From NCBI GenBank assembly GCA_916048055.1, contig CAJZHL010000004.1, positions 248,001 through 312,000 on the forward strand: a stretch of DNA of 64,000 nucleotides, written 5' to 3'. The notes under the pieces were generated by a model that worked only from the letters and a program-made list of their open reading frames with translations, was not told the origin of the DNA and did no database searches. Source of the DNA: Pedinophyceae sp. YPF-701 (lineage: Eukaryota; Chlorophyta; Pedinophyceae). This document shows positions 40,768-52,443 of the stretch, piece after piece (the stretch's first letter is position 1; each line of letters opens with the position of its first letter). A program made the position numbers and the translations under genes.

Positions 40768-43126
40768 TCACGTGCATTTCGTTTCTTGCGCCGTCATGCC
40801 GCTGCCTCTCCACAAGTCGAGCAAGACCCCGCCCGCCAGCTGCCCCACGTCCACCTCGCGGCTCCCCCTCGCGAACTCCTCCACCAGCGCCCTCTCCGCG
40901 CTCCCCTCGGGCCACGCGCCCGCGTCCCGCAGCTTCGTCGCCCGAAACAGTGCCGCGCAGCACGCCACGAATTCCGCCCCGTATGGCGGTCCGCACCGCG
41001 ACAAGCTGCACAGAAATGCGAACTGCGCGTCGCCGGGGTCCGTGTCCGCCTGCTGCGCCCACGACGACAGCCACGCCATCGCTTCCGCCGCGTGCGCCGT
41101 TCTCAGCCCATCCACGACGTACCCGAGCAACCGTCGCCTGTCCTCCTCCTGAAGACATCCCGACGCCATCAACGCCCGCAGCGCCCGCAGTCCCTCCGCG
41201 AACAGCTGCGGCTGCGCCTGCAGGACCGCGTGCACCACCTGCAGCGCCGCCGGACCCGCCGTTGCCGCCACGTCCCCCAACGGCGGCTGGTACGCGTCCT
41301 CGACGGTGATCAGCGCGCTGAGACTCGCGACGGGGACCTCGCCGATGTGGTAGAGCGAGCTCGAGTCCAGCTCGGCCCCGCTGGAGGCGAGTTTGCGCAT
41401 GGACTCTGTTGCTTCGCGCAGCGTGTCTTCGACCATGTCTCGCTCCATGGGGTCCGCAGAGCAGGCCTCGGCGAGCAGTGCGACTGCCTGCGAGGACGCT
41501 GCGCCAGCGGACCCGGCCGGCAGGACGGCGCGCATGAGGCAGTGGAGCACCGGGAGGGTCCGCAGGGCGTGGGGAGGGGGGGGTTCGTGGGGGGTGTCGG
41601 GGGTCTTCGGGGCCGCGTGGGCGGCGAAGAGACGGTGGAGGGCGGCGATCGCCGTGGGAACGCGGCCCGCGGGCGCGGAGAGGAGGTTCGCAGCCGCCGA
41701 GAAGCTGCGCGCGTCGCCCCGTCTGGTGCTGGCTGCGAGGGGGAGGGCGGGTGGCGCTGACGCGTGAGGCTCGCGCCATGCGGGGGCGCGTGGGCGATCA
41801 GTTCGAGAAAGCGAGGCAGCGAGGCACGAGGATGACGCGAAGAAGGGGGTGATGGCGGAGCACCTTTGGAGGACAGCTCGGAGATCGCCCGCCAGACAGT
41901 TCCGCCCTGGACCTGCGCAGCCTGGCTCTGGAGCTCCGCAGCGGCTTTGCGAAAGATGCCGCCTCTCGGGTGCGCGCCCAGCGTGGTCAGCATCGTCAGG
42001 GTGTGGAGGTATAACTCCTGCTCGCTCAGCGCAGCCGCGACGACCGCCCGCATCTCCGCGGACGCCCGCTCCGGATGCGACGCCGCACGCTTCAGCCGTG
42101 CTGCACGCAAGGCGGCGGCCGCGGCGCCTCGCGAGCTCAGCAGCTGCACTTGCACCATGCTGGCGTGCATGCATGCACGCGGCAGGGGGCGGCTCGCCGC
42201 ACCTGACAGGATGGTGTGGTACACCCAGAACTGTCGCGCGACGGGCCCGCCAGCCGCCGCGACCTCCTCCTGGTGCCCCGCGGCGATGACAGTCCGCAGG
42301 CCGTAATCGAGCAGGGGGCACGCAGGGTGTTTCTCTAGCAGGCGGTACGTGAGCTTTCGGCCCTGCTCGAACGTCAACAGGTCCTCGAACCACTGCGGAA
42401 CCCCCGCCCCGCCCGGCTGGAACGCGTTCTGCAGCCAAGCGGACGCCGCGGGTCCCACGTCACGGCCGAAGAGCCGACACAAGGGTCAACAACCAAACAA
42501 CCTTATTTACTGTTCGCGCACGCACAAACGCGGACTGAACACAGCGCGTCGGCCCGAGGGGCGTGGCGATCCCTCCGGACGGGGCCGGCGCCGTATTCTG
42601 CGCGCGAGCGTCCGTGCACGCGGCAGACTCGCACCTGGAAAGATTCGGGGCTGTAGCGCGCCTCGGCCTCCGCCACGAGCAGCGCGAGCACCGCGTCGCG
42701 CCCGCCTTCCTCGTGGCCGTGCCAGGGGTCCGAGACGTCGCCGGGAGCGTCGGTGGCGGCCGGCGGGGCCGTGCTGGTCGCCAGCGACAGCCATCGCCCG
42801 ACGACCGACGCCATCTGCGCGTAGCCGGCGTACGAGTCCGCGAGGAGCTCGATGGCGATCTCGGGCTTGCCTCCCTTGCGCAGGTACTCCCTCAGCGTCT
42901 GCGTCGCGGCGTGGGCGAGCGCGTGCGGAACGTTTCTGCGGAGCGAGTGCGCAAGGTAGCTTCCAGGGGAGCAGGCGCGACGCGCGCGGAGAACGCCGGG
43001 GTGCGAGCGGACCTGGATGACCTGTGGGTCCATGACGAAGTCCGCCTGTCGCATCTGGTTCTCGAGGTGCAGCAGATCCCTCCCGGCTCCATCGTCTGCT
43101 GGCGGGGTCGCCTCTCCCTCGTACAT
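40768..43126 (-). CDS. NELFCD: NELF-C/D (TH1) homologue
   Basis: NELF-C/D is the core scaffold of the negative elongation factor that holds RNA polymerase II at promoter-proximal pauses. Predicted exons: 43126-43013, 42898-42635, 42428-42203, about 42,160-41,866, about 41,725-40,768. Matches to the animal protein run in order. RQADFVMDPQVIQ joins TLREYLRKGGKPEIAIELLA, parallel to DYIMEP...TLKRYFQAGG. Then come YAGYAQMASVVGRWL, WFEDLLTFEQGRKLTYRLLE, KHPACPLLDYGLRTVIAAGH and RAVVAAALSEQELYLHTLTM. The C-terminal part has RSFSAAANLLSAPAG, then PVASLSALITVEDAYQPPLG and the helical stretch VVHAVLQAQPQLFAEGLRAL, mirroring the FPVVAMGVLKWVDW...FQL region and later helices. About 560-600 aa, as in animals. 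An Ala/Pro-rich insertion sits in the middle. NELF is widely reported as absent from land plants and yeast, so its presence beside plastid-type genes is unusual. Exon 4 and 5 borders are approximate. Confidence 0.8.
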
Positions 43127-43859
43127 CCAGTCATCCTGAATTCCGCGACGCGGAGCGAGACAGTGAAGTCTTGGACTCGCTAGCGAGGTGCGGGCGTCGA
43201 AGTTCGGCGGTTCCGCGAGCGCCAGGCGCGAGTCGCTGCAACAGGACGCAGCGCAAACACTCGGCGGGGCGGGCGCACACCTGCTGGTCGATAATGCCCG
43301 GAGCTGGCGATACGCGGCCGCCCGGAGACGGCGGGCCTCTATGCGCGCCCTGTGGCGACACCTGGCCCGCGCCCACCGGGGCGTCCATTGCCGTCGCGAG
43401 CCCTCTTCAGGCCCGCACTTACCGGCCGGACGGGCGCATGAATCGATGGCTCACGAATTGTAATTGAGCTTGTGCACTCAGCTGCACGAGACCGACCGCG
43501 CAAGGCTCCAGGCCGGGCCTTCCTCGCGCCGCTGTCCCGCGTCAGGCCGGGCCCAACTACCCACAAAAACACGCCACCGCGGACCACGTCATCGCACGCT
43601 CCAGTCGCGCACCACGAGAGAAGCGATTGACCACCCGCGCAAGACACGAAAAGCGGATGTGCCCTCGTCCTGATCAAGGCGGCAACGTGCTAGGAGGAGG
43701 GGTACTGGCGCGAAATGGCACGTGAGCATGTCACCATGTGCCTGGGGAGGCCCTGACCTACAATCAGACAGAGCGAGTGGAGGCACGTCCCGCACCGCGC
43801 CCCGCACCTCTCTGCACCGCGCAGCCGCGCTTCGCGTGCGTTCTCGCATCACATATCTC
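43127..43859. other. Spacer between NELF-C/D and kinesin gene
   Basis: About 0.73 kb. It holds the NELF-C/D promoter and the 3' UTR of the kinesin gene, both on the minus strand. No coding signal is evident. Confidence 0.35.
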
Positions 43860-46800
43860 TCAGCGCTTGCTCGGCGTCCGCATCAGCGTCCGCGAGCTCG
43901 CCTGCCGCGACGACGACGCCGCGATCCGCCTGATCGACGGCGACGCCGACACCGCGGGCCGGTCCCCGTCCGCCCCGCGGTACATCTCGAGCTCCATGGT
44001 CAGCTCATCGATGATCTTCTCCAGCCGCGCCGTCTCGCGCGTCTCGAACGAGCGCGACGCGTTGTTGCGCACGAGCTTCACGCGCGACGCGTAGTCCAGC
44101 GAGAGCTTCGTCTCGCCCGCGTCGGCCTCGAGCGGCGACAGGTTGACCACCATGAGCGTCTTGGCACTCCCCCCCAGGGAGTCCGACATCAGCTGCGTCA
44201 GCTTGTGGTTGCGGTACGGCACGAACGACTCGCCCTTCGTGAGCGCGGACACCACGTCCGCGAGCGCCGACAGCGACTTGTTGATCGCGGTCGCCTCCTT
44301 GAGCCGCTGCTCGTCGTTGATCGACCCGCTCTTGGCCACGCGCTCCGACCCCGCGAGGTCGATGAACGACATCCGCGAGCGCGCCCGCGTCCCCTGCACC
44401 TGGTCGTACGCCTCCACCACCATGCTGAAGATCATGTGGCTCCGCGACGAGCGGTCGTTCTTCTTCGTCGACGCGGTGCTGCGCAGCGCAATGCCCTTCT
44501 TGAGCAGCCCCGACGCCTCCGCCGCGGACGCGACCTCCTGCTTCACCGCGCCCTGCACCTCGATGAGCCCGCCGGCCCCGCGCGCGATCTTGAGCTCCGC
44601 GGCGCGCGTCTTGCCCAGGTCCTGCGCGCTGCGGCGGTCGCCCATGAGGTCCACCAGGTTGTCCATGTACAGCTCGAGCATCGTGACGGTCGCCGTGACG
44701 CCTGGGCGCGAGAAGAGGTCCTCGATCGCGCGCGGGAGGATGCCCAGGTTGCCCTCCGTGCCGAAAATCGTGTGCGTCTTCCCAGACCCTGTTTGCCCGT
44801 AGCAGAACACGCAGACGTTGTACCCGTCCAGCGCCGACTGCACCAGCGCCTGGGCCTCGCTAAACACCTCCTCCTGACTCGCCGCGCCGTCGAAGCAGTG
44901 GTCGAACTCGTACTTCCTGCAACACACCCCCCCGACACACAATCAGTCCCCACGTGCCTCCGCGCGCCAGAGCCGCCCCTCCGACGCCGCGTTGCGAAAC
45001 GCGCGACCGCACCCGCCGAGACAGCACATCCAACTTCGGCGCACAAGCAATCGCAATCGTAAAAGCAAGTCTCCCGCGGCGCTCACCTCTCCTGGAAGTC
45101 GCCCTCGCCCCGCGGCACGCGGATCCCGACGGTGTACTCGTCGAGCGGCCCGCACGCGTGCCCCTTGAGCTCCCCGTCGAACGGCAGCACCGGGCGCACG
45201 CGCGCCAGCACGCGGATGTTGCCCTTGAGCTCCCGCAGCTGGTTGTGCAGCTGCTTCCGCATCATCGTCTCGCGCTTGTACTCCCCCTCCATGCCCGCGA
45301 GCCGGGCGGTCGCGCGGTCCGCCGCCGACCTGCACTCCGCCGCCTCGCGCTCCAGCGCCTCGACGCTCTCGAGCTTCGGCGCTATGGTTTCCATCTGTGC
45401 GCGCAGCACCGACAGCTGGCTGTGCATCGCCTCCTTCTCGGACCGCAGCTGCACCATCGCGCTCTCCATCGCAGCCTCCTTCTCCTCGACCTCCATCTCC
45501 AACCGCGCGATCTTCTCCTGCGCGGCAAGCGAGCGCACCGGCACCGCGCACTGTGACGCTGTGCGGCGCAGCACCGGCGGCGCGCACAACGGCGAGATCT
45601 CGCACGCACCTTGGCCTGGGCCAGCTCCTTCGCGATCCGGTCGCGCTTCTCCTCGACCTCCTTCCGCCGCGCCGCCTCGCGCACCAGCACCGCCTCCACC
45701 TCCGCACGCGCCGCCTCGCCGCCCCGCGCCGCCGCCCCGCGCGCCGACGCCTGCGACGTCGCCTCCGTCAGCTCCCCCTCCAGCGCCTCCAGCCGCCCCT
45801 CCGCCTCGCCCAGCTGCCGCTCCAGCGCCCCCTTCTCCTCCATCAGCCCCTTGACGCGCAGCAACGCCGTACTCTTCAGCTCCTTGATCTCCCGCGCGTG
45901 CTTCTCCTCCGCCGCGCTGTACTGCTGCCCGGCCTCCTGCAGCGCCGCGCGCAGACGCCCCGTCTCCCCCGCCAGCACGCGGTACTCCTCCAGCGCGCGC
46001 GCCGCAGCCATCTGCGCGCTGGCGGCGTCGCCCGCCGCGCCCCGCGCCGACAGCGGCGGCGCCGCGGCCGCGGGCGCCTGCGTGGGGTCCTGCTCGATCG
46101 TCGTCACGGTCACCGACGCCAGCGCGGCGATCGTGGACATGAACGCGGGGTCGCTCGCCGCGCCGTCGTTGGAGCAAAGCCCCACGAGGAGGTCCCAGCG
46201 GTCGACGGCGGCGTTCGAGCGCGACGCGCAGTCGATGAAGCGCTGCAGGAGGCGCTCCTCCGTCGCGTCGCCGTCCTGGGACACCATCTCGTAGTGCTGG
46301 GAGGAGTTGCTGTTCCAGTTGCGGCATGTCTCCGCGACGTCGCGCCGGGAGACGACCGCAGCGGTGAGCGCGCCCTGCGTGGCCTGGTTCCGGGCGTGCG
46401 CTGCACGGACGGACGCCACGTGGCGCACGGCTTCCACCAGCGCCGTCACGTCGCGCTCGAAGCTCGACACCAACTCGTCCGGGGTCTCGTGCGCCGCGGT
46501 GTTCGTCGTCATCATGCTGCAGCGCGGCGGAGCCGGGCGCTGGCGACGTCGGGACGGCGCGCGCGCGTGTGTTTGGTTGGTGCGGCGGGCCAGAGCGCAG
46601 GACACGCATGATGAAGTCTCTTGTGACCACACCTGATGTCGTTGTCGTCGTCCTCATCGCCGAGGATGTCGAACACGTCGTCGCCGTCAGTGTCGCGCCG
46701 CCGCCCGCTCTCCGCCGCGGACGGCGTGTCGTAGCCGCGCGCGTAGTGCGCGGAGGCCGCGGGCGTTGTCGGCGCTGCCGTCGAGGCCTGGTCGCCGGCG

Positions 46801-47930
46801 CGGGCCTCCGCCATGTAGTCGATGCCGCGGATGATCGGCGCCCCGGACACCGCGCCCTCGAACGGGCGCAGCGGCTCCGGCTCGCGCGGGCGCGGGATTC
46901 TCGCAGGGTCAAGGCGCGCCTCTTTGAACCATTCAGGGTACTGGCTGTACGTGTCGCCGATGGGGCTTTGCTGGAAGTGGTGGGCGAGGTTCACGATGAA
47001 CTGGCGCGCGGCGCGCCGCACGAACTGGTCGTCGTGCCTGACGCTGGCCTCGAAGAGACGGTCGCGCCACTTTTTGTGGCCGAGGACGGGCATCATGGCC
47101 TGCGGGGCGTTCAGCGCGAGGCTGTCGAGGATCATGATGCTGATCAGGACGTACTCGGGGTTCCTGTCCCGCACGAAGTTCTTCAGTATGGACGCCACGT
47201 CGTCCGCCTGGTTGGGCTGAGCGCGCAAGTGCTTCACCAGCGCCTCCACCTTGCGCCAGTCGAGGTCCCCGGGACTAGAGAAGATCTCGTCCACGAGGCA
47301 TCGGGCCTGCAGAGACCGTGCGGGCGCCGCGAAACGAACGTTGGCGGGACGGCAGGGCGAAAGAGCTCACCAGCTGCCTTCCGGGCCGAACGCGCAACAC
47401 CTCGCGGACGGTTCCCGAAAGCGGTCCGCGCGAGTGACCGTGGGAGGCGAACCATGCGGCTGGACGCGAGCGTGGTCGGAAACGCGCAGCAGCGGCCAAG
47501 GGCACGAGCAGTGCTGGGCATCGAGTGGCGGAGAGGCCGCCGGGACGCGCCGCGGGTGACGCGCGCCGCGGCGTGCAGGCTGCGCGCGCAATCACGAGAT
47601 CATGCTCCGCGGGGGAGTCGCTGGACCCCTCGCGCACGACGCAGGACAAGAACCACCGCGACGCTGAGCTAAGCAGTGTGCAGTGTGGCCACGCAGCGCC
47701 GCGGCGCGGCCAGCTCACGTCTCGCTGGGCGCAGCCGCGCCGCCTCAAGAGGGCCGCGCGGTCGGCAGCGCGCACGTGCGTCGCGGCGCACGGCGTCCGT
47801 CGCGGCGCCGGCGCCTGCCCTCCGCAAGGGGGGAAAGAGCTGCCGCGGGGCCGCGTACGCGGCAAGTTGCGGGGATCGGACGTCCGCAACGCACCTCCTC
47901 CGAGGCCTTCTTGCCTCTCCCGAACACCAT
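43860..47930 (-). CDS. Predicted VHS-GAT-kinesin-14 fusion protein
   Basis: Predicted exons: 47930-47895, 47306-46633, 46516-45610, about 45517-45087, 44916-43860; all phases agree, about 1,034 aa. Residues 1-12 (MVFGRGKKASEE) join ARCLVDEIFSSPGDLDWRKV, the start of a VHS domain (to about residue 150; ILKNFVRDRNPEYVLISIMI, FVRRAARQFIVNLAHHF). An acidic linker ends ILGDEDDDNDI, then a phase-2 intron (46632-46517). The next exon opens MMTTNTAAHETPDELVSSFE and has EERLLQRFIDCASRSNAAVD, resembling the last helices of a GAT domain. A coiled coil (about 330-640) follows, then the motor: neck ELKGNIRVLARVRPVLPF, P-loop GYNVCVFCYGQTGSGKTHTI, switch I NDRSSRSHMIFSM, switch II DLAGSERVAKSGS and SLDYASRVKLVRNNASR. 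The C-terminal motor with GNIRV neck is kinesin-14, minus-end directed. If the 116-bp intron were not spliced, two genes would overlap by an ATGA; the GAT-like helices on the kinesin side favour one gene. Confidence 0.78.
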
Positions 47931-49126: not shown

Positions 49127-52100
49127 ATGCCGCGGCCTGTCGACGCCAGGCTGGGTCGCCCGCTCCTGGGCGCCCGCCCATCGCGATGCCTCTCTGTTTC
49201 GGTCGGTGCGAAGGGCGGGAAGGGCCGCAAGAATAAGGACGACTCCGTTTACAGGTGAGCCGCGCATTCCGCCGGCGAACGCTGCGCGAGGGCGCCCCCT
49301 GCGCCCGCTGCAACCGGCGCTGGGACGTGCGGCAGCGGAGCAAGAGCGCCCTCGCAGCGCGCGTGTGCGGCCGTAGCCGCGCAGGACGCCCTCGCGATCC
49401 CATCACTATGAGCGGTTCCGTCCGGAAACAGCCTGGACGCGTCTCATCGCGGCCCCAGGGGCCCTGTGCGCGCCTGACCCTGTGCTCTGAGTCTCTCCGC
49501 CCCGTTTCCGCGCGCGATGTCCGCAGCGCGACGGTGCGGCTGCCGGAGACGGAGTTCAACATGCGCGCCAACTCGCTCAAGCGCGAGCCCGAGATCCAGA
49601 AGTTCTGGGAGGAGGCGCGCGTGTACGAAACGCTGGCGAGCTCCAACGCGGGCGACACCTTCACGCTCCACGACGGCCCGCCGTACGCGAACGGCGACCT
49701 CCACATCGGCCACGCGCTGAACAAGATCCTCAAGGACTTCGTGAACCGCTACCAGCTCCTGCGCGGCCGCAAGGCCAAGTTCGTGCCCGGATGGGACACC
49801 CATGGTCTTCCAATCGAGCTCAAGGTGCTCCAGAGTCTCAAGAAGTCGGAGCGCGAGGCCCTGACGCCCGTCACGCTCCGCGAGAAGGCCCGCGAGTTCG
49901 CCCTCGCCACCGTCGAGTCCCAGAAGGAGCAGTTCCGCCGGTACGGCGTCTGGGCGGACTGGGACGCGCCCTACGTCACGCTCGACCCGGCCTACGAGGC
50001 CGCGCAGATCGAGGTGTTCGGGAAGATGGTCCTCAACGGGCACATCTACCGCGGGTTCAAGCCCGTGCACTGGTCGCCGTCCTCGCGGACCGCGCTCGCG
50101 GAGGCGGAGCTGGAGTACCCCGAGGGGCACACGTCGCGGTCCATCTACGTGGCACTGCCGCTGAGTGAGGTGCCCGAGGGTGCGCCCGAGGAGCTGGCGG
50201 CGTGCGTGGGCGACACGTCCATCGCGGTGTGGACGACGACGCCGTGGACGATCCCGGCGAACCTCGGCGTGGCGGTGAACGAGCGGATCGAGTACGCGGT
50301 GTGTGCGGCGGAGGGCGAGGGCGCGGCGGGGTGGGCGCGGAAGCGCGTGATCGTGGCGAAGGACCTGGTGGAGACCGCGGCGGAGAAGTTCGGCGTGGGT
50401 CTGACCGTGCAGCACGTGTTCACGGGCGCGCAGCTGGCGGGGTGCAAGTACAAGCACCCGCTGTACGAGCGCGAGAGCCCCGTGGTGGTGGGCGGGGAGT
50501 ACATCACGACGGACTCCGGCACGGGCCTCGTGCACACGGCGCCCGGGCACGGCCAGGAGGACTACATGACGGGCCAGAAGCACAACCTGGGTTTGTTGTC
50601 GCCGGTGGACGACGCGGGGCGGTTCACGGAGGAGGCCGGCGAGGCGTTCAAGGGCCTGAGCGTGCAGGGGGAGGGCAACGCGGCGGTGATCGAGGCGCTC
50701 CAGGGCGGCGGCGCGCTGCTGGTCGAGGAGGAGTATGCGCACAAGTACCCCTACGACTGGCGCACGAAGAAGCCGACCATCTTCCGCGCGACGGAGCAGT
50801 GGTTCGCGTCGGTGGAGGGCTTCCGGGAGGAGTGTTTGAAGGCGATCGGGGAGGTCTCGTGGGTCCCCGCGGCCGGCGAGAAGCGCATCTCGGCGATGAC
50901 CGAGGGGCGGTCGGACTGGTGCATCTCGCGGCAGCGCAAGTGGGGCGTCCCGATCCCCGTGTTCTACTACGAGGACTCCGGCGAGCCGCTGATGACCGAG
51001 GAGACGATCGCGCACGTCCGCGACGTGTTCGCCGAGCACGGGTCGGACGCGTGGTACAAGTTTGACACCGCGGACCTCCTCCCGGAGCCTCTCCGCGCCG
51101 AGGCGCCCAAGCTGAAGCGCGGCGAGGACACGATGGACGTGTGGTTCGACTCCGGGTCGTCCTGGGCGGGCGTGGTGTCGCGCACCGAGGGCCTGCGCCT
51201 CCCCGCCGACCTGTACCTGGAGGGGTCGGACCAGCACCGCGGGTGGTTCCAGAGCTCGCTGCTGACCAGCGTGGCGGCGACGGGCGCGGCGCCGTACAAG
51301 CAGGTGCTCACGCACGGGTTCGTGCTCGACGAGAAGGGCATGAAGATGTCCAAGTCGGTTGGGAACGTGGTGGACCCGCGCACCGTGATCGAGGGGGGGA
51401 AGAACCAGAAGGAGGAGCCCCCGTACGGCGCCGACGTGCTGCGGCTGTGGGTCGCGTCCGTGGACTACACGGGCGACGTCCTCGTCGGCCCGGGCATCCT
51501 GAAGCAGGTGTCGGACGTGTACCGGAAGGTGCGCTTCACGCTGCGCTTCCTCCTGGGCAACCTAGCGGACTTCGACCCGCAGAACGACGCCGTGCCGCTC
51601 GCGGACCTGCCCTCCGTGGACCGGTACATCCTGAGCCGCACGGCCGCGTTCTGCGACGAGGTCGAGGCGGCGTACGGCGCGTACAGCTTTGCGCGCGTGT
51701 ACCAGGCGGTACAGCGGTTCTGCATCACCGACCTGTCGTCGTTCTACCTGGACGTCGTCAAGGACCGCACCTACATCCGCGCGCCGACCTCGACCGCGCG
51801 GCGCACCGCGCAGACCACCCTGAACATCGTCCTGCGTGCGCTGATGTCGGCGGTGGCGCCGCTGGTGCCCCACATGGCCGAGGACGCCTGGCAGAACCTG
51901 CCCTACGCGCCCTCGGCGTCGTCCGTGTTCCAGGCCGGCTGGCTGAGCGTCCCGGACGACGCCCGCGGGCTCCTGTCGGAGGAGGACGCCGCGGCGTGGG
52001 CGGGGCTGCTCGAGGTGCGCGACGCCGTGAACAAGCTGCTGGAGACGGCCCGCGTGGACAAGTTCGTGGGGTCGTCGACGGACGCGGCGGTGTTCGTCCA

Positions 52101-52443
52101 CGTGGCGGACGGCGCGGTCGCGGACTCGATGGCGGCGCTGCTGTCGGAGAGCAACGAGGTGGACGAGCTGCGGTACTACCTGCTGGCGTCGCGCGCGACG
52201 CTCTGCGGCGAGGACGACGCGCGGGCGTGCCAGTACTGCGAGGAGGTGGACATCGAGGGCGTCGGAAAGGTGGTCGTGGGCGTGGCGAAGGCCGAGGGGA
52301 CGTCGTGCAACCGCTGCCGCACGTTCTCTCCGCTGGTCGGGGACAGCGCGAAGCACCCGCTGCTGTGCGAGCGGTGCCTGCCCGTCGTCGAGGAGCTCGG
52401 GTTCGAGGCCCCCGCGCCGGTCACCACGGCCGCGTCCACGTGA
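49127..52443 (+). CDS. Isoleucyl-tRNA synthetase, plastid/bacterial type
   Basis: Charges tRNA-Ile with isoleucine in organelles. Two exons: 49127-49254 (MPRPVDARLGRPLLGARPSR and on, a targeting-peptide-like stretch ending KGRKNKDDSVY) and 49527-52443; AG joins C in phase, giving about 1,014 aa. Catalytic signatures are HIGH (GDLHIGHALNKILKDF) and KMSKS (EKGMKMSKSVGNV). CP1 editing shows WTTTPWTIPANLGVAVN and TDSGTGLVHTAPGHGQEDYM. WFDSGSSWAGV and YLEGSDQHRGWFQSSLL are also present. The anticodon-binding part is followed by a C-terminal zinc finger with CNRCRTF and LCERCLP, typical of bacterial and plastid enzymes and absent from the cytosolic eukaryotic one. Wording is very close to Arabidopsis OVA2 (plastid and mitochondrial). 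The first Met could also be further upstream, since the frame is open from 48986. Confidence 0.93.

Follow-up and report, generated by a model that had tools for sequence, protein, structure and literature searches.

The closest described counterpart of the gene reported here is KIFC1 of Trypanosoma brucei (TbKIFC1; UniProt Q388B7 according to PMC4560804), which, in the accessible parts of two papers, combines an N-terminal VHS domain with a motor at the C-terminus and is linked to the traffic of endosomal membranes (PMC7479354, PMC4560804). Its VHS domain binds anionic lipids, and binds them better with cholesterol (PMC7479354), and a mutant in helix 7 of this domain loses both the trafficking activity and the endosomal partner proteins (PMC7479354, PMC4560804). 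The adaptor TOM1 works with a minus-end motor of another kind, the actin motor myosin VI, which is a separate protein (PMC6673701). According to the sections consulted of PMC7952518, the helices by which VHS domains bind ubiquitin are 2 and 4, with affinities from high micromolar to low millimolar, and ubiquitin is also bound by the third GAT helix of TOM1. Here we describe a gene of the green alga Pedinophyceae sp. YPF-701, lately named Akinorimonas japonica (PMC12574857), which is predicted to join a VHS-GAT adaptor head to a kinesin-14 motor. This alga is a core chlorophyte, and the gene lies in a window of 64,000 nucleotides (C4:248001-312000) from an assembly of 27.9 Mb in 32 contigs. An earlier note, made from the letters of this DNA alone, had proposed such a fusion. 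Based on the comparison of sequences, the gene belongs to an ancient green-lineage subfamily of kinesin-14.

The subfamily was recognised through its motor. A homolog search with residues 13-400 (7995 candidates scored) and one with the VHS domain only, at E up to 10 (286 candidates), each returned only the YPF-701 protein itself, and the family was drawn from the best 120 of the 7635 matches obtained when the motor (residues 560-985) was the query. Nine of these 120 carry precomputed VHS and/or GAT labels beside the kinesin label, namely both in P0004, VHS in P0005, P0008, P0010, P0011, P0012, P0015 and P0016, and GAT in P0014. These nine relatives were placed in one alignment, A1 (n = 11), together with the YPF-701 protein (P0001) and P0006, a Tetraselmis protein that ranks high among the matches. 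In A1, VHS, GAT and motor are aligned in the same order in all ten relatives, each of them a single gene model or transcript. The domain order that the earlier note had read from the DNA thus recurs elsewhere, and six of the ten relatives are identifiable as green algae: Bryopsis (P0011), Apatococcus (P0015) and Pycnococcus (P0016) are named, and the identity of Chlorokybus (P0004), Mesostigma (P0005) and Tetraselmis was read from JGI codes. At E up to 1, Pfam matched VHS in 9/11 and GAT in 8/11 of the aligned sequences, and its cut-offs were exceeded in 7/11 and 1/11, respectively. Pfam VHS gave no match in P0006 and P0014, nor did Pfam GAT in P0001, P0010 and P0016. The models P0006 and P0012 begin inside the VHS domain, and P0014 is a single MMETSP transcript in which Pfam recognises GAT and the motor, the VHS being assigned by alignment only. 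Neither VHS nor GAT was matched at E up to 0.5 in any of seven kinesins from outside the family (P0013, P0018, P0020, P0034, P0046, P0060 and P0067).

The N-terminal region of the YPF-701 protein is homologous to VHS proteins and is modelled as a helical superhelix. The Pfam comparison that the earlier note had suggested gave a Kinesin match of 300.9 bits, a VHS match below the cut-off of 29.8 bits (17.6 bits with the whole protein, 19.8 bits with the VHS part alone) and no GAT match, so that it bore out the motor, fell short for VHS and failed for GAT. The best PDB sequence for the VHS region alone was HRS (E 8.5e-5), and TOM1 was non-significant (E 0.64). The profile of eight relatives, built without the YPF-701 protein, matched residues 14-137 of the latter at 72.1 bits (E 4.6e-21), as compared to at most 6.3 bits in 2000 shuffles of the region and at most 6.5 bits in 109 other kinesins. 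The E-values of such held-out profiles are those for about 2110 sequences. The region limits were taken from the alignment that had included the YPF-701 protein, which was left out when the profiles were realigned. A held-out profile of six relatives found HRS, STAM1/2, TOM1, TOM1L1 and GGA1-3 as the 12 best PDB sequences, with a best E of 9.4e-17. This comparison also bears on another identity for the superhelix, a CID/RPR-type domain that would bind the RNA polymerase tail and have no part in endosomal sorting. The 12 best matches are all from endosomal VHS families and none of the 22 matches is a CID, and we rejected this identity as extremely improbable.

The VHS helices are present in both structure models, and their predicted local distance difference test (pLDDT) values are about 73-89 in the model based on the alignment. 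The model made from the YPF-701 sequence only is poor (pLDDT 49.3). HRS, GGA3, STAM2, GGA1, GGA2 and a Nicotiana TOM1-type protein appear among coiled coils in its 50 best Foldseek rows, with E 0.0035 or weaker for the VHS rows; an Smc coiled coil heads that list, which also holds many unrelated helical proteins, and the VIA rows are mostly coiled coils. Such a model and such a mixed list of folds are therefore taken as supporting evidence only. Nine sequences extend to the column of the VHS helix 2 Trp; 8 of them have Trp there and P0014 has Phe. Variants of the linker motif IIRGIDY occur in 8/11 family sequences under a loose three-way pattern.

For GAT, the YPF-701 protein alone is insufficient, and it is on the profiles of its relatives that the claim stands. 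Its GAT piece gave no meaningful match among PDB sequences. The lack of a GAT profile match just after the intron was a point that the earlier note had itself named as one that would refute its proposal; the lack holds for Pfam and is answered by the profile of the ten relatives, built without the YPF-701 protein, which matched residues 252-345 at 19.4 bits (E 1.1e-4), the maximum in 2000 shuffles of the region being 10.8 bits. When a profile of eight GAT regions was compared with the PDB, the eight best matches were the GAT domains of GGA1 and TOM1 (E 4.9e-4 to 6.2e-3), and GGA3 was found at E 0.44. The same note had described a GAT-like helix pair; the likeness to GAT is upheld by the family profile, and the pair has become three helices (249-278, 284-306 and 323-352; pLDDT about 66-87 in the alignment-based model). 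Both GAT homology and a three-helix bundle were thus found in the YPF-701 protein.

Of the 39 motors in the phylogenetic tree, 12 belong to this family and 15 are KCBP, 8 are others and 4 are kinesins of the YPF-701 genome. Among the 12 is P0007, a metagenome protein truncated at the N-terminus, and the top-row proteins P0002, P0003, P0009 and P0013 were left out as odd or multi-motor models. A branch with support 100/100 separates all 12 family motors from the rest of the tree, KCBP included, and P0060, which had been labelled 'other' beforehand, places inside KCBP. The YPF-701 motor has a long branch and comes out as sister to the remaining eleven (91/81), among which the streptophytes Chlorokybus and Mesostigma pair (82/87). 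From this placement, the VHS-GAT kinesin fusion would most simply be older than the divergence of the two green phyla. No land-plant protein among the best 120 of the motor matches carried a VHS or GAT label, and we offer it as a suggestion that the family may have been lost in land plants.

The features of the gene are listed in Table 1. The conceptual join of 1034 residues is identical, letter for letter and over its full length, to P0001, the protein deposited for this alga, and the four introns, of 588, 116, 92 and 170 bp, are all GT-AG. The coordinates, the strand, the position, length and matching phase of intron 2, and the domain order are as the earlier note had given them. Along the polypeptide, the VHS domain and a linker come first, then the GAT-like three-helix bundle and the coiled coil, and the kinesin-14 motor is at the C-terminus. 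Its central claim, a predicted single polypeptide from VHS to kinesin-14, is supported by the deposited gene model and by the ten relatives with the same order. The other view is that of two adjacent genes on the same strand, of which one would encode VHS alone and end near 46512, and the other would encode the kinesin-14 and begin with the ATG at 46515. Indeed, without removal of intron 2 the VHS frame crosses it and stops at 46514-46512, overlapping that ATG, and the phase match of intron 2 alone is weak evidence for a splice because 16 of 28 nearby GT..AG pairs also give a joined translation that, whichever frame results, meets no stop before exon 3 ends. However, the deposited model joins the VHS and motor parts, GAT stands between VHS and motor in the relatives, and the in-phase third-position GC content is 0.64 in intron 2 versus 0.92-0.97 in the five exons, which fits a non-coding intron. 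The two-gene view was rejected on the deposited model and the relatives, and we regard it as very improbable. Linker residues 183-245 have pLDDT below 50 in the alignment-based model, and as the splice of intron 2 falls in this disordered linker, homology supports the join of the domains and not its exact nucleotides. As a separate observation, a VHS-only isoform through retention of intron 2 (46512-46515, minus strand) is conceivable.

Table 1. Features of the VHS-GAT kinesin-14 gene of Pedinophyceae sp. YPF-701 (positions in the window)
Feature	Position	Strand	Basis
Whole gene, 5 exons and 4 introns, 1034-residue VHS-GAT-coiled coil-kinesin-14	43860..47930	-	splice join and identity with deposited P0001
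Exon 1, start codon, residues 1-12	47895..47930	-	
Exon 2, VHS domain and linker	46633..47306	-	
Intron 2, 116 bp, phase 2, GT-AG, between VHS and GAT exons, in disordered linker	46517..46632	-	
Exon 3	45610..46516	-	splice join
Exon 4	45087..45517	-	splice join
Exon 5	43860..44916	-	splice join
VHS domain, residues 14-141, helical superhelix	46920..47303	-	held-out profile, models, Foldseek
Trp29 at the beginning of VHS helix 2, in line with HRS VHS Trp	47256..47258	-	
Linker motif IIRGIDY, family pattern about F-x-x-G-[LIV]-D-[FY], between VHS and GAT	46815..46835	-	
GAT-like three-helix bundle, residues 249-352	46171..46482	-	profile of 10 relatives and model helices
Coiled coil, residues 399-635	45230..46032, split by intron 45518-45609	-	two very long model helices
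Kinesin-14 neck and motor, residues 636-972 of 1034	44049..45229, split by intron 44917-45086	-	
P-loop GQTGSGKT, residues 723-730	44775..44798	-	
Switch I NDRSSRSH, residues 836-843	44436..44459	-	
Switch II DLAGSE, residues 869-874	44343..44360	-	

A K/R-G-N neck in front of the motor is a marker of kinesin-14. It reads LKGNIRV at residue 636 of the YPF-701 protein and is present in 11/11 family sequences, and 11/11 likewise have an intact P-loop, switch I and switch II. The two long helices before the motor in the alignment-based model (399-498 and 504-635) suggest a coiled-coil dimer. With this model, the KCBP and KIFC3 motors were the top solved structures by Foldseek E-value, and the alignment by VIA-align with KCBP 4frz_A had Z 38.7 and 2.3 A over 309 residues, many other kinesins scoring higher, up to 42.0. 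Both programs returned kinesin motors only with this model and are uninformative on VHS and GAT. The top Foldseek row, 3h4s, which we take to be KCBP, is titled as a mitotic kinesin. Many kinesin-14s are mitotic, and this title, together with the KCBP motors being the nearest both in the motor search and in Foldseek, would fit a head that serves the organisation of microtubules or basal bodies, for instance at the spindle or the flagellar root, and not vesicle transport. VHS and GAT are trafficking modules, however, and the MyTH4-FERM head of KCBP is absent from the YPF-701 protein; a role of this kind appears rather unlikely to us.

The explanation that we favour, and consider reasonably probable, is that pedinophytes have with this gene their representative of an old green subfamily of kinesin-14. 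The head of an endosomal adaptor, VHS followed by GAT as in TOM1/TOL and GGA proteins, would in this subfamily be joined by a linker and a coiled coil to the motor and make it a retrograde endosome carrier. Two chains would pair through the coiled coil, the VHS-GAT heads would dock on endosomal or multivesicular membranes via acidic lipid and/or ubiquitin, and the motors would walk to the microtubule minus ends, so that the protein would be a self-contained retrograde endosome carrier. In other eukaryotes, retrograde carriage of endosomes is carried out by cytoplasmic dynein with adaptors. The predicted cargo of the minus-end transport would be endosomal and possibly ubiquitinated. As the GAT has drifted in YPF-701, docking there probably rests mainly on the VHS. 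The best precedent for a VHS that serves a C-terminal kinesin is TbKIFC1.

Several points weigh against such a carrier. The identity between the YPF-701 protein and its relatives is 18-28% in VHS and 19-24% in GAT versus 50-57% in the motor, from which the head either evolves fast or is loosely constrained. The support for GAT is modest, with 19.4 bits for the YPF-701 protein and 1/11 family members over the Pfam cut-off, and the next PDB rows of the GAT profile, from E 0.029, are unrelated viral fusion proteins. The Asn-Asp of GAT helix 3, which is part of the ubiquitin-binding side, is present in 10/10 relatives and lost in the YPF-701 protein. The presumed minus-end direction is read solely from the neck and the position of the motor. 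In addition, the 2015 paper on the trypanosome protein, in the part consulted, reported KIFC1 outside the endocytic compartment (PMC4560804).

The lost Asn-Asp would also agree with a head that is a lipid-binding anchor as in TbKIFC1, without recognition of ubiquitin, the GAT being a spacer or a protein dock. The binding of anionic lipids by the TbKIFC1 VHS and its enhancement by cholesterol (PMC7479354) point the same way, as does the high micromolar to low millimolar range reported for VHS and ubiquitin (PMC7952518). On the other hand, the Asn-Asp is kept in all ten relatives, and so is the VHS Trp in 8 of the 9 sequences. We hold a pure lipid anchor to be possible, on the doubtful side, and retain the endosome carrier that may use lipid, ubiquitin or both.

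In the search of the whole genome with Pfam VHS at E up to 10, only exon 2 of this gene was found (E 0.0046), and there was none at 0.001. The Bryopsis VHS likewise found only this gene (E 5.4e-11). The exon-by-exon search with Pfam GAT found nothing in the genome, the GAT of this gene included, and a search of the same type does recover ENTH and ANTH genes. These results hint that the motor-fused copy may be the only VHS-GAT protein of the alga, given that an exon-by-exon search could miss a divergent or intron-split TOL. A wider proposal, to which we give tentative and rather low credence, is that the ancestor of all green plants had a motor-fused ESCRT-0-like adaptor, which algae retained, which disappeared from land plants and which is the only VHS-GAT protein of YPF-701. 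If so, the capture of ubiquitin cargo on endosomes and its minus-end transport would be performed by one molecule in this alga.

The same alga also encodes a KCBP, P0020. Two kinesin loci elsewhere in the genome, C2:723303-724304 and C5:1123077-1124078, lie on different contigs and have equal scores and equal frames of 649 residues; they may stem from a segment duplicated recently or from duplication in the assembly. The next gene downstream in the window (41310-43450, minus strand) has two separate Pfam TH1 (NELF-C/D) matches, with E 2.2e-10 and 1.6e-8, and its best E-values against PDB NELF-C/D chains are 9e-5 and 6.5e-4. To our knowledge, NELF is absent from plants, and a NELF-C/D-like gene in a green alga is worth attention for that reason. 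The divergent upstream neighbour (49237-52443, plus strand) has a long open reading frame that matches class I tRNA synthetases (PF00133, 451.7 bits) and probably encodes the isoleucyl enzyme, whose zinc finger was matched weakly, under the cut-off.

Plants and green algae use kinesin-14 for minus-end transport, and the adaptors that load these motors are largely open. An adaptor-bearing kinesin-14 that extends from Chlorokybus and Mesostigma as far as Bryopsis and Tetraselmis offers a direct way to ask how a motor recognises endosomes. No description of a green-algal VHS kinesin was found in the literature searched, which was mostly outside subscription journals. The consulted parts of a 2006 kinesin survey name VHS once, in a figure legend without species, and list no VHS kinesin in the tables for Chlamydomonas and Cyanidioschyzon or in the part of the diatom table that was available (PMC1434745). 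The word 'kinesin' is absent from a survey of ENTH, ANTH and VHS proteins that sampled six green algae (PMC3473312). The statement of the earlier note that no kinesin of this architecture had been described therefore holds, within this literature, for a green VHS-GAT kinesin, and gives way for a VHS with a C-terminal motor: TbKIFC1 precedes it, and the YPF-701 protein is not the first VHS kinesin.

Compared with the known systems, the YPF-701 protein shares parts with each. It is like the GGA proteins in that the VHS profile matches GGA1-3 and the GAT profile matches GGA1, and differs from them in having a motor and no GAE ear in the Pfam scan. TOM1 and the plant TOL proteins also have VHS followed by GAT, and the family profiles match both TOM1 domains; they have no motor, and since the YPF-701 protein has one it was not filed with them, though it would act in a similar way. 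Whereas TOM1 and myosin VI are two proteins, here the adaptor and a presumed minus-end microtubule motor would be in one chain. The KCBP motors are the nearest kinesin-14 motors outside the family, in sequence and in Foldseek, but KCBP has a MyTH4-FERM head instead of VHS-GAT and forms a separate clade. Membership in KCBP was rejected because the YPF-701 protein has no Pfam MyTH4-FERM match and its motor is in the other clade. TbKIFC1, taken here by description only, is like the YPF-701 protein in having an N-terminal VHS and a C-terminal kinesin motor; it differs in belonging to the kinetoplastids and not to the green lineage, and GAT is unmentioned in the descriptions consulted. The comparison of the two may tell whether the VHS-kinesin pairing is very old or has arisen twice.

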